A stretch of DNA of 64,000 bases, taken from Sporolactobacillus vineae DSM 21990 = SL153. GTDB lineage: Bacteria; Bacillota; Bacilli; Bacillales; Sporolactobacillaceae. Position 1 is the stretch's first letter; the number at the start of each line of letters is the position of its first letter. This document shows positions 11,235 through 16,373 of the stretch, piece after piece. The position numbers were made by a program, and so were the translations under genes. The stretch is from NCBI RefSeq assembly GCF_000377985.1, contig NZ_KB899044.1, forward strand, positions 62,001-126,000. The letters are read 5' to 3'. The notes under the pieces are model-generated. The model was given only the letters and a program-made list of their open reading frames with translations, did not search any database and was not told the origin of the DNA.

Positions 11235-11891
11235 ATGGAATTCAAAACCGTACTTTTTGATTTTGACGGCACCGTGGCCAACACGCTGCCCTTGTGCATC
11301 CACGGCTTCAAATCGGTTTTCAAAAAATATGATCATCGTTCGATCGATACGGAAGGGATCATCTCGATGTTCGGTCCGACCGACGACGCGATGATCCGCA
11401 AAAATTTGCGCGATCAGGACGCCGTTCCGGAAGCCATCGAATTTTACTATCAGATCTATACAAATGAACATAAAAAATATGTCGGGGATCATCCGGCTAT
11501 TCTCCGTCTTCTAAAAGCGCTGAAGCGCAGACAGATCCAGGTCGGTCTGATTACAGGCAAGAGCCGGCGCGCCTACACGATTTCGGAAAAACTGCTCGGC
11601 TTCGAAGGCTTTTTCCAGAGCGTGATAACCGGAGACGACGTCACGGTGCCGAAGCCCGATCCGCAAGGGATTCTGAAAATGCTGGATCATTTTCACGCAA
11701 ACAAGGAAACAGCGATTTACATTGGCGACAGCAACAACGATATTCTCGCCGGGAAAGCGGCCGGGATCCATACCGCTGCGGTACAGTGGTTCCCGATGTC
11801 TCAGTCCGGTTCCTACCCGGCCGGTCCGGATTATTACTGGACCGACGTGAATGACTTCATTGACCTGCTGCAGCGCAGCAATCCGGTCTGA
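11235..11891 (+). CDS. HAD-family phosphatase, Gph/PpaX-like
   Basis: A 218-residue haloacid dehalogenase hydrolase. Motif I DFDGTVANT starts near residue 9 with both aspartates, motif II is GLITGKSRRA near 102, motif III lysine is in VPKPDPQG near 138, and motif IV is YIGDSNNDILAGKAAG near 157-171. The size and helical cap match phosphoglycolate phosphatase and pyrophosphatase PpaX subfamilies. Similarity to B. subtilis PpaX looks partial, so I leave the symbol blank. GGGGGAGAG just upstream is a good ribosome binding site. It ends eight bases before the convergent sirtuin gene. Confidence 0.85.
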   Translation: MEFKTVLFDFDGTVANTLPLCIHGFKSVFKKYDHRSIDTEGIISMFGPTDDAMIRKNLRDQDAVPEAIEFYYQIYTNEHKKYVGDHPAILRLLKALKRRQIQVGLITGKSRRAYTISEKLLGFEGFFQSVITGDDVTVPKPDPQGILKMLDHFHANKETAIYIGDSNNDILAGKAAGIHTAAVQWFPMSQSGSYPAGPDYYWTDVNDFIDLLQRSNPV

Positions 11892-11899
11892 AACCCTGG

Positions 11900-12631
11900 T
11901 CAGTTCAGGGCAGCATCCGGATCAAAATGGTTGAAGTCGGTTTTGACAAAAGAATCGATACAATCCATCTGCAAAGCTTTCCGGTCATTGATCAGCAAGG
12001 TCGGAACGCCTTGCATTTTTGCGTATAACGGGAGCCTGTTTGCCGGTGTTACGGCAAGCGATGAACCCAGCACGATCAGCCGGCTGGCCCTGCGCACAGC
12101 CTGTTCGGCTTCCTCAAAACCGCGCACGGCTTCGCCGAACAGAACGATGTCCGGTTTCAGAACGGCACCGCAGATGCTCCCTTTGTCTGTTTCGGAGGAG
12201 CAGCGGGGAAAGGCCTGATCACGGATTGATGCCGTGCTGTAGACTTTGCCGCAGCGCGGACAAACCGTCCTGGCGAACGAACCGTGAATTTCAATGACAT
12301 GCGAACTGCCGGCCTGGCGATGCAGCCCGTCGATGTTCTGCGTCATCACGGTCACTTTATGGTGCTTTTCAAGATCTTTAATCCAGAGATGAACCGGATT
12401 CGGCCGGGCAGAGAGCAGAAGATCCGCGTCGAATAAATTCCAGTAAAAGGTCCAGAAATCTTTCGGGTGACTGTGCAGATACGCGATATTCAGGCAGCGC
12501 TCAACGTCGGCATTCTTGTAAAGCCCGTTTGCGCCGCGGAAAGGCGGAATCCCCGACGGAACACTGACACCCGCACCGGTCAGTACAGCCAGAGTATCAT
12601 CAGCAGCGATCAGCTGATTCAATGTCGTCAT
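11900..12631 (-). CDS. SIR2-family NAD-dependent deacylase
   Basis: A 243-residue sirtuin. The NAD-binding segment TGAGVSVPSGIPPFRG is near residue 18, TQNIDGLHRQ near 98, the catalytic histidine is in EIHGSF, four zinc cysteines follow (CPRCG, then PRCSS and SICG), and GSSLAVTPAN is near 190. Sirtuins remove acyl groups from lysines; in Bacillus SrtN reactivates AcsA, whose gene is close by here. An upstream ATG at 12649 is in frame, but GGGGGAAG immediately before ATG 12631 supports the shorter start. Its promoter region is shared with the divergent mrfAB operon and the LexA-like box. Confidence 0.9.
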   Translation of the reverse strand: MTTLNQLIAADDTLAVLTGAGVSVPSGIPPFRGANGLYKNADVERCLNIAYLHSHPKDFWTFYWNLFDADLLLSARPNPVHLWIKDLEKHHKVTVMTQNIDGLHRQAGSSHVIEIHGSFARTVCPRCGKVYSTASIRDQAFPRCSSETDKGSICGAVLKPDIVLFGEAVRGFEEAEQAVRRASRLIVLGSSLAVTPANRLPLYAKMQGVPTLLINDRKALQMDCIDSFVKTDFNHFDPDAALN

Positions 12632-12693
12632 TTTACTTCCCCCAGTCATTCGTTTCTAACCTTATTTTAGGATCACCAACGAACAGAATATAG

Positions 12694-12707
12694 CGAACGT
12701 GTATTCG
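12694..12707 (+). promoter_or_regulatory. probable LexA/SOS box
   Basis: CGAACGTGTATTCG matches the Bacillus LexA palindrome CGAAC-N4-GTTCG with one mismatch (A for G at 12703). It ends seven bases before the -10 of the mrfAB promoter, a position at which bound LexA would block RNA polymerase. Confidence 0.55.
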
Positions 12708-12710
12708 ATA

Positions 12711-12719
12711 TGTTATAAT
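12711..12719 (+). promoter_or_regulatory. extended -10 promoter of mrfAB
   Basis: TGTTATAAT is a perfect extended -10 (TGN then TATAAT). There is no good -35 at 16-18 bases, as expected for an extended -10 promoter. The leader to the mrfA start is about 110 bases. Confidence 0.6.
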
Positions 12720-12834
12720 TATGAGATGAAAAACGAGTTCGATCATGACGCGGGATGCTCATAATCTCTACGCCGATCCGTGAAGTGACGGAAATGACGA
12801 TCATGTTCAGAGAACACAAGAGGGAGGGGTCATA

Positions 12835-15105
12835 ATGAAAGCACGGCAATCGATGGATGAGCTTCTGAGCGATCTGAAAAGGGATCCGAATGTGGTTCAC
12901 TGGCATACGGTACCCGGTCGCGAGGCGGTGTCCGTACCGTTTCCCGAAAGTCTCGACAGCCGTATCTGCCGGGCGCTGAACCATCGCGGCATCAATGCTT
13001 TATATAGTCACCAGGCCGACGCCTTTCAATCAGTCATGGCCGGCAAAGATGTTGTGCTCGTGACGCCGACAGCTTCCGGAAAAACGTTGTGTTATAACCT
13101 CCCCGTATTGCAGCATTTGCTTGACGACCCGACTTCAAGGGCACTGTATTTCTTCCCGACGAAGGCACTGGCTCAGGATCAGAAGAATGAAATGGAACAG
13201 CTGATTCAGGAAATCGGCGTGCCGTTAAAAAGTTATACATATGACGGCGATACCTCCGGCACAATCCGGCAGTCGATCCGTCGTGCCGGGCAGATTGTCA
13301 TGACCAATCCCGACATGCTCCATTCATCGATCCTTCCCCATCATACGAAGTGGGTTTCATTTTTTGAAAATCTTAAGTTTATCGTGATCGATGAACTTCA
13401 TGTCTACCGGGGGGTGTTCGGCAGCCATGTGGCCAACGTGATCCGAAGGCTGGAACGGATCTGCAGCTATTACGGGAGCCATCCGCAGTTTATCTGCACG
13501 TCAGCGACAATCCGGAATCCCCGGGAACATGCGGAAGCTCTTACGGGACGTAAAATGACCCTGATCAACCGGAATGGCGCACCGGCAGTCCGCAAACATT
13601 TTCTGTTCTATAATCCCCCGGTGGTTAATAAACAACTGAATGTGCGTGAGGACGAGATGATCGCCGTGAAAACAATTGCAGCACGCTTTCTGAAGAACCG
13701 GATTCAGACGATTGTGTTTGCCCGAAGCAAATTGAAGGTCGAGCTGCTGGTCAGCCACCTCCAGGAAATCAACAGCGGACGTGACGAGAAAGCGAAAATC
13801 TGTGCCTATCGCGGCGGCTATCTTCCTCTGGAACGCAGACGCATTGAGCGCGGCCTGAGAAACGGCGATATCATGGGCGTGGTCAGTACCAATGCACTGG
13901 AACTGGGCGTCGACATCGGCCAGCTGCGCGTCTGCATCATGACCGGCTATCCTGGAAATATGGCGAGCGTCTGGCAGCAGGCGGGGCGCGCCGGAAGACG
14001 TCAGGGGGATGCAATTATTATTATGGTTGCGTCCTCCAATCCGCTTGATCAGTACATGGCGACGCATCCGGATTACTTCTTCTCGCGGAACCCTGAAGAC
14101 GTCAGAATCAACCCGGATAATCTGATGATTCTTGCCGACCACATCAAATGTTCGGCCTATGAGCTGCCCTTTAAGAAGGGTGAGAAATTTGGCGGTCAGC
14201 CGGCCGACGACCTGTGTGAATTTCTTGCCGATGAGGATCTGCTTCACTTTCAGGCTGGTAAATGGTACTGGATGAACGATGCATTTCCGGCCAATGAGAT
14301 CAGTCTTCGCTCGGCTGTTCAGGATTCATTTGCGATTGTCGATGTGACGGACCGCGGTCATGCCCGGGTTATTGGTGAAATGGACCGGTTCGGCGCAATG
14401 ACCATGCTCTATGAAGACGCCATCTATATTCACCAGGGCGTTCAGTATCATGTTGATCAGCTGGACCTCGACGAGCGGAAGGCTTATATCCGCAAGGTCA
14501 ACGTCAACTACTACACGGACTCTGATCTGGCGGTACAGATGGACGTTCTGGAGACGGACGAGAAAAAACCGCTGCAGGGGCTGGACGCGGATCAGTCGTT
14601 CGGCGATGTTTCCGTCCGTGCACTGCCGACTGTTTTTAAGAAAATTCGATTTGAAACGATGGAAAACATCGGCTGGGGGCATATTCATCTTCCGGAGATG
14701 GAGATGCATACGAACGGGACCTGGATCAGCTTTTCAGAGGCCTGGACCAATCGTTTCGGCAAGGATGTTTTTCAGGGCGTGCTCGCCGGGCTGAGCCATC
14801 TGCTCCGGCATGCGGCGCCGCTCTTTGTCCTCTGCGATCAGTCGGATTTATCGGTGGTCCCGAGAATCAAGGCTACCCATAATGAGCTCCCGACCCTTTT
14901 CATCTACGATAAATATCCTGGCGGGATCGGGCTGAGTAAGAAATTATATGAGGCGATGCCGGATCTGCTCCGCAAGGCGAGAGAAATGGCGGCGGCCTGC
15001 GACTGCGAATCCGGCTGTCCGTCTTGCATCGGCTTTGTCAGCGAAGGACGTGCTGCAAAACAGGCTTTGCTTCATCTGCTGGGAGCGGTTGCACCATGTC
15101 GCTGA
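12835..15105 (+). CDS. mrfA: DEAD/DEAH-box helicase MrfA (YprA)
   Basis: A superfamily 2 helicase of 756 residues, the length of B. subtilis YprA, now MrfA, which acts with MrfB in repair of mitomycin C adducts. Walker A TPTASGKTL is at about 77-85, the DExH box IDELHVYRG near 185, STNALELGVDIGQL and QQAGRAGRRQGDA form the second RecA domain, and a C-terminal DUF1998 region ends in a four-cysteine cluster CDCESGCPSC (about 722-731), a probable metal site. The ribosome binding site is GAGGGAGGGG. It overlaps mrfB by ten bases. A LexA-like box in the promoter fits a DNA damage function. Confidence 0.93.
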   Translation: MKARQSMDELLSDLKRDPNVVHWHTVPGREAVSVPFPESLDSRICRALNHRGINALYSHQADAFQSVMAGKDVVLVTPTASGKTLCYNLPVLQHLLDDPTSRALYFFPTKALAQDQKNEMEQLIQEIGVPLKSYTYDGDTSGTIRQSIRRAGQIVMTNPDMLHSSILPHHTKWVSFFENLKFIVIDELHVYRGVFGSHVANVIRRLERICSYYGSHPQFICTSATIRNPREHAEALTGRKMTLINRNGAPAVRKHFLFYNPPVVNKQLNVREDEMIAVKTIAARFLKNRIQTIVFARSKLKVELLVSHLQEINSGRDEKAKICAYRGGYLPLERRRIERGLRNGDIMGVVSTNALELGVDIGQLRVCIMTGYPGNMASVWQQAGRAGRRQGDAIIIMVASSNPLDQYMATHPDYFFSRNPEDVRINPDNLMILADHIKCSAYELPFKKGEKFGGQPADDLCEFLADEDLLHFQAGKWYWMNDAFPANEISLRSAVQDSFAIVDVTDRGHARVIGEMDRFGAMTMLYEDAIYIHQGVQYHVDQLDLDERKAYIRKVNVNYYTDSDLAVQMDVLETDEKKPLQGLDADQSFGDVSVRALPTVFKKIRFETMENIGWGHIHLPEMEMHTNGTWISFSEAWTNRFGKDVFQGVLAGLSHLLRHAAPLFVLCDQSDLSVVPRIKATHNELPTLFIYDKYPGGIGLSKKLYEAMPDLLRKAREMAAACDCESGCPSCIGFVSEGRAAKQALLHLLGAVAPCR

Positions 15106-16373
15106 AACAGAAACTGGCTCTGTATAAAAAGCAGCTGCATCAGGCACAGCAGGCTGAAAAACAACCGATTCACCGGCAGACCGAAGATCACAGTACTGAG
15201 AACGAATCAGAAATTCTTGTTGCAGCAAATGCCCTTAAATCGGGAATTCGCCGTTTTGAGGACGAGTATGTACTTGTTCATTCCGAGCAGCTTTCTCTGA
15301 CCCACAAGATCGGGCCGTATCGACCGGGAGATCTCTTTCGTACGGTCGCACTCTGGCACGAAGGCCCGAAAAATCATCCCCTTTCCGCGGCAGCACTGCG
15401 TGCAGAAGATCTGCTCTTTTTTGATACGGAAACTACAGGCCTGTCCGCCGGCGCCGGTGAGATGATTTTTCTGATTGGTATGGCCCGGGTCAACCGAAAT
15501 GGTGTCGTGCTGAAACAGTATCTCCTTCCCGGTCCGGGGCATGAAGTGGCTTTTTATGATGCGTTTCTGTCAGACTGCGGTTCACTGAAAAATCTGGTTA
15601 CTTTTAACGGGAAGGCATTTGACTGGCCGCGGGTGAAAACCAGATATCAGTTTGTCCGCGATCAGGTTCCCCGGTTACCGGCTTTCGGTCATTTCGATCT
15701 CCTGCATGCCTCCCGCCGTCTGTGGAAAGACAGACTGGATTCGGTTCGCCTGCAGTCGGTTGAAAAGGCGATTCTGTCGATGGGAAGGACCGATGATGTT
15801 CCTGGAAAAATGGCTCCGTATCTCTATTTTAAGTTTTTGAAACATCCTGATGCCGGACTGATTTCCGGTATTCTGGAGCATAATCGCGAAGATGTTCTGT
15901 CGCTGATTTCCCTTTATATTCATCTTTCCGGTCTGATTCTCGGCGATTTGCCTGCTGATGAAGGCGAATCCTTCCAAATCGGGCGCTGGTTTGCGCAGCT
16001 TGGTGCCGCAGACCGGGCACGTTCACTATTTGAACCGCTGGCCCTGCGCAGCGATGCGTACGGCATCCGGTCAAAAATTTTTCTGGCAAAGTTGTGCAAG
16101 CGGGCAGGGAAGTATGGGCATGCACTGTCGCTGTTCCGGTCGGCGATTGCTGAAGAGAAGGAACCCGACAATCTGCTCTTTATTGAAGCAGCCAAGCTCA
16201 TGGAGCATCAGTTTCGGGATTACTCCGGTGCCATGCACTATACGCAGCGAGCCATTCACGGTCTCAGGGAGCGCGCGAACGCGGAAGATCATTCCGGAGC
16301 AGCCTTGCTGTCGGATTGCCTGAAGCGGCTCAACCGGCTCGATCAGAAAATGCTCAGGGAAAACAATGGCTGA
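15096..16373 (+). CDS. mrfB: DEDD-type exonuclease MrfB (YprB)
   Basis: A 425-residue ribonuclease H-like exonuclease, partner of MrfA. FDTETTGLSAG near residue 108 supplies the first acidic pair, FNGKAFDWPRVKTRY near 168 the third aspartate, and HNREDVLSL near 262 the last H and D. The C-terminal 120 residues look like TPR helices. The family removes nucleotides during repair of mitomycin adducts, with the helicase presumably opening the duplex. The start at ATG 15096 overlaps the mrfA end and has GGGAG ten bases upstream; the open frame back to 15024 lies inside mrfA. A stem-loop terminator follows. Confidence 0.92.
   Translation: MSLKQKLALYKKQLHQAQQAEKQPIHRQTEDHSTENESEILVAANALKSGIRRFEDEYVLVHSEQLSLTHKIGPYRPGDLFRTVALWHEGPKNHPLSAAALRAEDLLFFDTETTGLSAGAGEMIFLIGMARVNRNGVVLKQYLLPGPGHEVAFYDAFLSDCGSLKNLVTFNGKAFDWPRVKTRYQFVRDQVPRLPAFGHFDLLHASRRLWKDRLDSVRLQSVEKAILSMGRTDDVPGKMAPYLYFKFLKHPDAGLISGILEHNREDVLSLISLYIHLSGLILGDLPADEGESFQIGRWFAQLGAADRARSLFEPLALRSDAYGIRSKIFLAKLCKRAGKYGHALSLFRSAIAEEKEPDNLLFIEAAKLMEHQFRDYSGAMHYTQRAIHGLRERANAEDHSGAALLSDCLKRLNRLDQKMLRENNG

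Follow-up and report, generated by a model that had tools for sequence, protein, structure and literature searches.

A probable LexA operator in the mrfAB promoter of Sporolactobacillus vineae and its conservation among the Bacillales

We argue that a 14-bp element in the promoter of the mitomycin-repair genes mrfA and mrfB of Sporolactobacillus vineae is a true LexA operator. We hold this with high confidence, binding by LexA being what the sequence and its conservation point to. Most likely LexA represses mrfAB until the DNA is damaged; we are less sure of the size of the operator's effect on these genes. Judging from the boxes found before mrfA in other genomes, SOS control of mrfAB is probably widespread in the Bacillales and probably extends to B. 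subtilis; several families lack it or have lost it. A LexA site conserved in this way would make mitomycin-specific repair by MrfAB part of the general response to DNA damage, also in B. subtilis.

The structure of MrfB and its mitomycin-specific repair route are presented in PMC11194089, and the available parts of its main text do not mention SOS or LexA. As far as the excerpts go, PMC12458937 treats the YprA family and PMC6051672 presents a screen for damage sensitivity in which yprA and yprB appear. The accessible portions of these three papers, and of PMC1976550, PMC12345164, PMC9578287, PMC2248561, PMC8270828, PMC4551915, PMC9380542 and PMC11442139, do not name mrfAB (yprAB) as a LexA target. 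Nor did our literature search, based on such partial texts and not extending to the original catalogue of B. subtilis SOS genes, find any paper naming the operon as LexA-controlled; a prior report is possible. That catalogue is reportedly the one of Au et al. 2005.

The operon and its promoter

The window is the stretch of 64,000 nucleotides of S. vineae DNA analysed here. In it mrfA (yprA; 12835..15105, plus strand) starts with an ATG at 12835 and encodes a DEAD-box helicase with an MZB domain, while mrfB (yprB; 15096..16373, plus strand) encodes an exonuclease of the RNase_H_2 family and has its ATG inside the end of mrfA, an overlap of 10 bases. MrfA carries the Pfam domains DEAD, Helicase_C, WHD_HRQ1 and MZB (MrfA Zn-binding) and matches YprA of PDB 6znp, which we take to be the B. 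subtilis protein, over residues 4-750 with an E value of 0. MrfB carries RNase_H_2 and matches the solved core of MrfB in PDB 8un9 (E 1.7e-77). We recognize a MrfAB pair by this arrangement, a helicase with an MZB domain and downstream of it an RNase_H_2/DEDDh exonuclease, the ends of the two overlapping. Among named relatives S. shoreae has the closest MrfA, at 86% identity. A SIR2-family gene (11900..12649, minus strand) runs divergently from mrfA; it is identified by Pfam SIR2, and its best models, a NAD-dependent deacylase, score below their cut-offs.

The predicted operator, CGAACGTGTATTCG, lies at 12694..12707. It agrees with the consensus CGAACRNRYGTTYG at 13 of 14 letters, the single mismatch being A in place of G at position 10, and apart from this it has the inverted half-sites CGAAC/GTTCG and four-base spacer that mark an SOS box. 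The sequence on its 3' side reads A-TATG-T-TATAAT and ends at 12719. Within it we predict an extended -10 for mrfA, TG-T-TATAAT (12711..12719, plus strand), whose TG starts four bases past the end of the box, a placement that puts the box in contact with the core promoter. A sigma-70 scan of this region of the window found no plus-strand -35/-10 pair, as one would expect if mrfA has an extended -10 promoter. The LexA (DinR) operators of the B. subtilis SOS regulon (CGAACN4GTTCG) are like the window box in their half-sites, four-base spacer, contact with the core promoter and DNA-repair targets; they differ in that the window box has one ATTCG half-site.

The leader between the predicted promoter and mrfA (12720..12834, plus strand) is 115 bases long and contains a likely ribosome-binding site, GAGGGAGGGG, at 12820-12829. 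It is about 45-60 bases longer than in the relatives of the genus, the box standing at -141 against -78 to -96. A structured leader or riboswitch was considered and rejected: the fold of 12726-12840 is no better than that of shuffled sequences (z 1.46), and an Rfam search of the leader gave no match above the gathering score, with one sub-threshold match on the other strand.

LexA and the other SOS boxes of the genome

The genome encodes a LexA of its own. The protein scores 265.9 bits against TIGR00498 (cut-off 110.95), has the LexA_DNA_bind and Peptidase_S24 domains, and contains AG, GESM and VKRF, which we take to be the cleavage site and the Ser-Lys dyad. This LexA would have operators of its own in the same genome, for SOS-like boxes stand before recA (TIGR02012), upstream of a Y-family polymerase gene (NF002848) at a distance of 40 bp, and at three places between lexA and a LysM-domain gene resembling yneA. 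In the lexA/yneA-like divergent region (G000:C3:13876-13953; L152-L154) the three boxes have GGAACGTATATTCC alongside. Another SOS-like box, CGAATGACTGTTCG, is flanked by genes for a metallo-beta-lactamase-fold protein and an M24 peptidase (L151:1501-1514).

The A at position 10 is found in the recA box, the polymerase box and one lexA/yneA box as well. It is also found outside the genus: the SOS box of S. aureus recA is CGAACAAATATTCG, according to the available part of a review (PMC11442139), which makes the ATTCG half-site a documented form. As given there, the S. aureus box is of the same class as that of the window, CGAAC-N4-ATTCG, and differs in controlling recA and not a mitomycin-repair operon. 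The same 14-mer is identical to boxes in several Fictibacillus mrfA promoters. Since this A is common to three kinds of box in the genome and to S. aureus recA, we do not believe that it is a defect.

Conservation beyond the genus

Two patterns were searched within 200 bp of mrfA, a strict one (CGAACN4RTTCG) and a relaxed one (C[GA]AACN4[AG]TTC[GT]). Among the best 80 of 213 named relatives, a sample that leans to close kin, the strict pattern occurs in 35 and the relaxed in 43, one box each. The four-base spacer behind these 43 stands against at most 1 for spacers of 0-3 and 5-12 bases. In 300 single-base shuffles the strict pattern averaged 0.013 (maximum 1) and the relaxed 0.083 (maximum 2), and the strict count of 35 therefore places the position and conservation of the mrfA box far beyond chance.

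The class sample was built from the 30 loci nearest to the solved YprA and 41 rows picked to add genera. Through these new loci 71 of the 204 matching genomes, among the matches listed, were examined, with the window's genome and G014 besides, and 68 were counted. The count omits L146 and L147, whose orientation is ambiguous; both show CGAACATCCATTCG. A box precedes the mrfA orthologue in 40/68 genomes and 30/57 genera, against at most 3 for the other spacers from 0 to 9.

The geometry of operator and promoter takes two forms. In most of 33 rows from outside the Sporolactobacillaceae a predicted -10 (TAAAAT, TACAAT) starts about one base after the box, and the positions -8 to -6 are T-rich. 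Read as a -35, these would leave a 17-bp spacer to the -10, and the box would thus fill the promoter spacer. In the 10 box-bearing rows of the Sporolactobacillaceae the -10 hexamer is displaced by another five bases from the box and is usually preceded by TG. In either geometry LexA would be expected to collide with RNA polymerase. The mechanism we propose is that in the undamaged cell a LexA dimer would sit on the 14-bp operator, directly upstream of the extended -10 in the window and between -35 and -10 in most relatives outside the family, and would limit transcription of the mrfA-mrfB operon. Upon DNA damage RecA loaded on single strands would bring about the self-cleavage of LexA, the operator would be emptied, and the helicase-exonuclease pair would be made together with the other SOS genes.

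Bacillus and B. subtilis

Of 44 genomes of the genus Bacillus, 38 have mrfA, and in 37 of these a box stands before it. One of them, G442, encodes an MrfA that shows 100% identity with the solved YprA along 744 residues, and on this ground we take the genome to be B. subtilis. Its mrfA has CAAACAAATATTCG at -51, which agrees with the consensus at 12 of 14 letters. The identical box is found in 30 of the 38 genomes, seven others have CGAACGGACATTCG or CGAACTGACATTCG, and in the sole boxless one (L233) the right half is broken. When 29 of the 30 rows are aligned, CTAG.CA before the box and GTA.ACT after it are invariant too and the sequence further out varies; the Bacillus box is therefore part of a longer conserved promoter. 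MrfA and MrfB of B. subtilis are homologous to those of the window and the box is at the same place, but both half-sites are variant there whereas the window keeps one perfect half-site. On sequence, then, the version in the B. subtilis group looks weaker and yet is invariant.

The initial annotation had read the box as a LexA operator in the mrfAB promoter and had suggested that SOS control in this lineage would be a regulatory difference from B. subtilis. Conservation lends strong support to the first part of this interpretation. The second part has to be given up: boxes occur in 37/38 Bacillus genomes, G442 with its identical MrfA included, and across many further genera, so the site is not confined to Sporolactobacillus.

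The alternative that survives best accepts a conserved LexA site with little effect on the output of mrfAB, whether through weak repression or a leaky promoter, so that the genes would be near constitutive. It shares LexA binding with the explanation we prefer and the odds of the two overlap; as a separate account we consider it rather unlikely. Of the 43 named relatives with a box, 42 have A for G at position 10, and this could mean modest affinity, as could the two departures from the consensus in the B. subtilis form. However, the same A in the boxes of the genome's recA, polymerase and lexA/yneA-like region and of S. aureus recA is no mark of a dead site, and one would not expect 30 Bacillus genomes to keep an ineffective operator unchanged, although other promoter bases are invariant there too.

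Returning to repression by LexA, we can go one step further on a point where the chances seem to us evenly balanced. MrfAB may be an old core SOS function of the Bacillales that was missed in B. subtilis through drift of its operator to the double-variant, invariantly kept CAAACAAATATTCG; this may be a weaker or earlier-released LexA site that tunes the repair of mitomycin adducts within the SOS response. LexA targets that come to light in a comparison across genera can escape a strict consensus cut-off.

Conservation within Sporolactobacillus

The genus set consists of 15 genomes, every one with an mrfA match. The box CGAACN4ATTCG is present before the orthologue in 14, and its first base lies 78-141 bp upstream of where the mrfA homology begins. 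In 13 of these 14 rows (L021 was left out) aligned on the box, CGAAC....ATTCG and TATG.TATA.T are invariant, at equal spacing from each other, and the four central bases vary; over 60 bases upstream and 40 downstream the only other invariant position is a T three bases before the box. The initial annotation had described the element as one mismatch from the Bacillus LexA palindrome and directly upstream of an extended -10, which the sequence confirms, and had held that a palindrome not conserved in relatives would speak against it; the relatives keep it. Two named Sporolactobacillus from outside the set (L036 and L041) have the box as well, L036 with TGTG for TATG. The exception within the set, L014, has no box and no sirtuin; by eye, the frame directly upstream of its mrfA resembles the gene at 11235-11891 of the window. 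In two of the 15 genomes, G006 (L019/L020) and G011 (L018/L021), mrfA is split over two frames, either a frameshift or an assembly error, and in both the SOS box is intact.

These rows also bear on the idea, which we think improbable, that the operator is there chiefly for the divergent sirtuin gene or is shared by the two genes. A weak candidate promoter for that gene (ATAACA, 18, TATATT; 12687..12716, minus strand) agrees with the consensus at 9 of 12 letters and holds the LexA box in its spacer. The scan gives 2 such sites in the region against 0.7 expected, which is not evidence of function. The box is nevertheless kept in L009, L015 and L016, where the upstream 1,500 bp contain no sirtuin match, and it therefore belongs to mrfA and not to the sirtuin gene. 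Among the 80 named loci tblastn (E 1e-10) finds the sirtuin in 5, all Sporolactobacillus, against a box in 43.

The motif count

The motif taken alone is too common to identify an operator. The window has 147 matches within three mismatches of the consensus against 173 expected, and two places with one mismatch, at 12694 and 23014. Genome-wide, CGAACN4GTTCG is matched with at most one mismatch at 76 places and the reversed control pattern at 70, and we reject the count by itself as proof. The tighter pattern CGAAYRNNYRTTYG does better: its 8 forward and 13 reverse matches fall on 13 distinct places, and the reversed control has 4 in each direction. Six of the 13 precede SOS-type genes or mrfA (recA 1, Y-family polymerase 1, lexA/yneA-like 3, mrfA 1); of the other seven, four fall within open reading frames (L004, L156, L158, L159) and three lie at other positions (L149, L151, L157). 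The near-control loose count is what speaks for a chance palindrome, or for the site of another regulator with a similar operator, but this is scarcely credible when the half-sites are kept with a variable centre and a spacer fixed at 4 in 14/15 genomes of the genus and 30/57 genera of the class sample, and when the same half-sites are found before lexA, recA and the polymerase gene of the genome itself.

Genomes lacking the box

Within 200 bp of mrfA the relaxed pattern is absent in 37 of the best 80 of 213 named relatives: all 25 loci of Lysinibacillus, Ureibacillus and Kurthia, four of Domibacillus, which carry AGATCGTTTGTTCG in its place, two of Parageobacillus, Tuberibacillus and five others. 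It is absent in 28 of the 68 class-sample genomes too, where the boxless families are those coded f18 (10 genera), f44 and f5 (3 each), and f31 and f32 (2 each). Three near-boxes that the relaxed pattern does not count agree with the consensus at 13 of 14 letters each: CGAACGTTTGTTTG in Caenibacillus (L044), CGAACGTATTTTCG in L087 and CGAACGTCCTTTCG in L234. L044 and L087 belong to the five others just named.

In the Lysinibacillus, Ureibacillus and Kurthia loci (L090-L114) mrfA follows within a few bases of another open frame, of 121-145 codons, and has no box. By eye this frame resembles YppE/DUF1798. A replacement SOS box upstream of this operon, AGAATGCTTGTTCG in 8/25 loci, was rejected because by eye it lies within the apparent end of the upstream coding sequence.

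In a FastTree phylogeny of 113 MrfA proteins, which leaves out L147 (a short frame), the presence and absence of the box needs 7 changes against 33.6 for shuffled labels. Such a figure fits a trait that is inherited and has been lost several times; gains are also possible, as the root of the tree is not known. Copies of mrfA on plasmids were found in 67 records, all below 60% identity.
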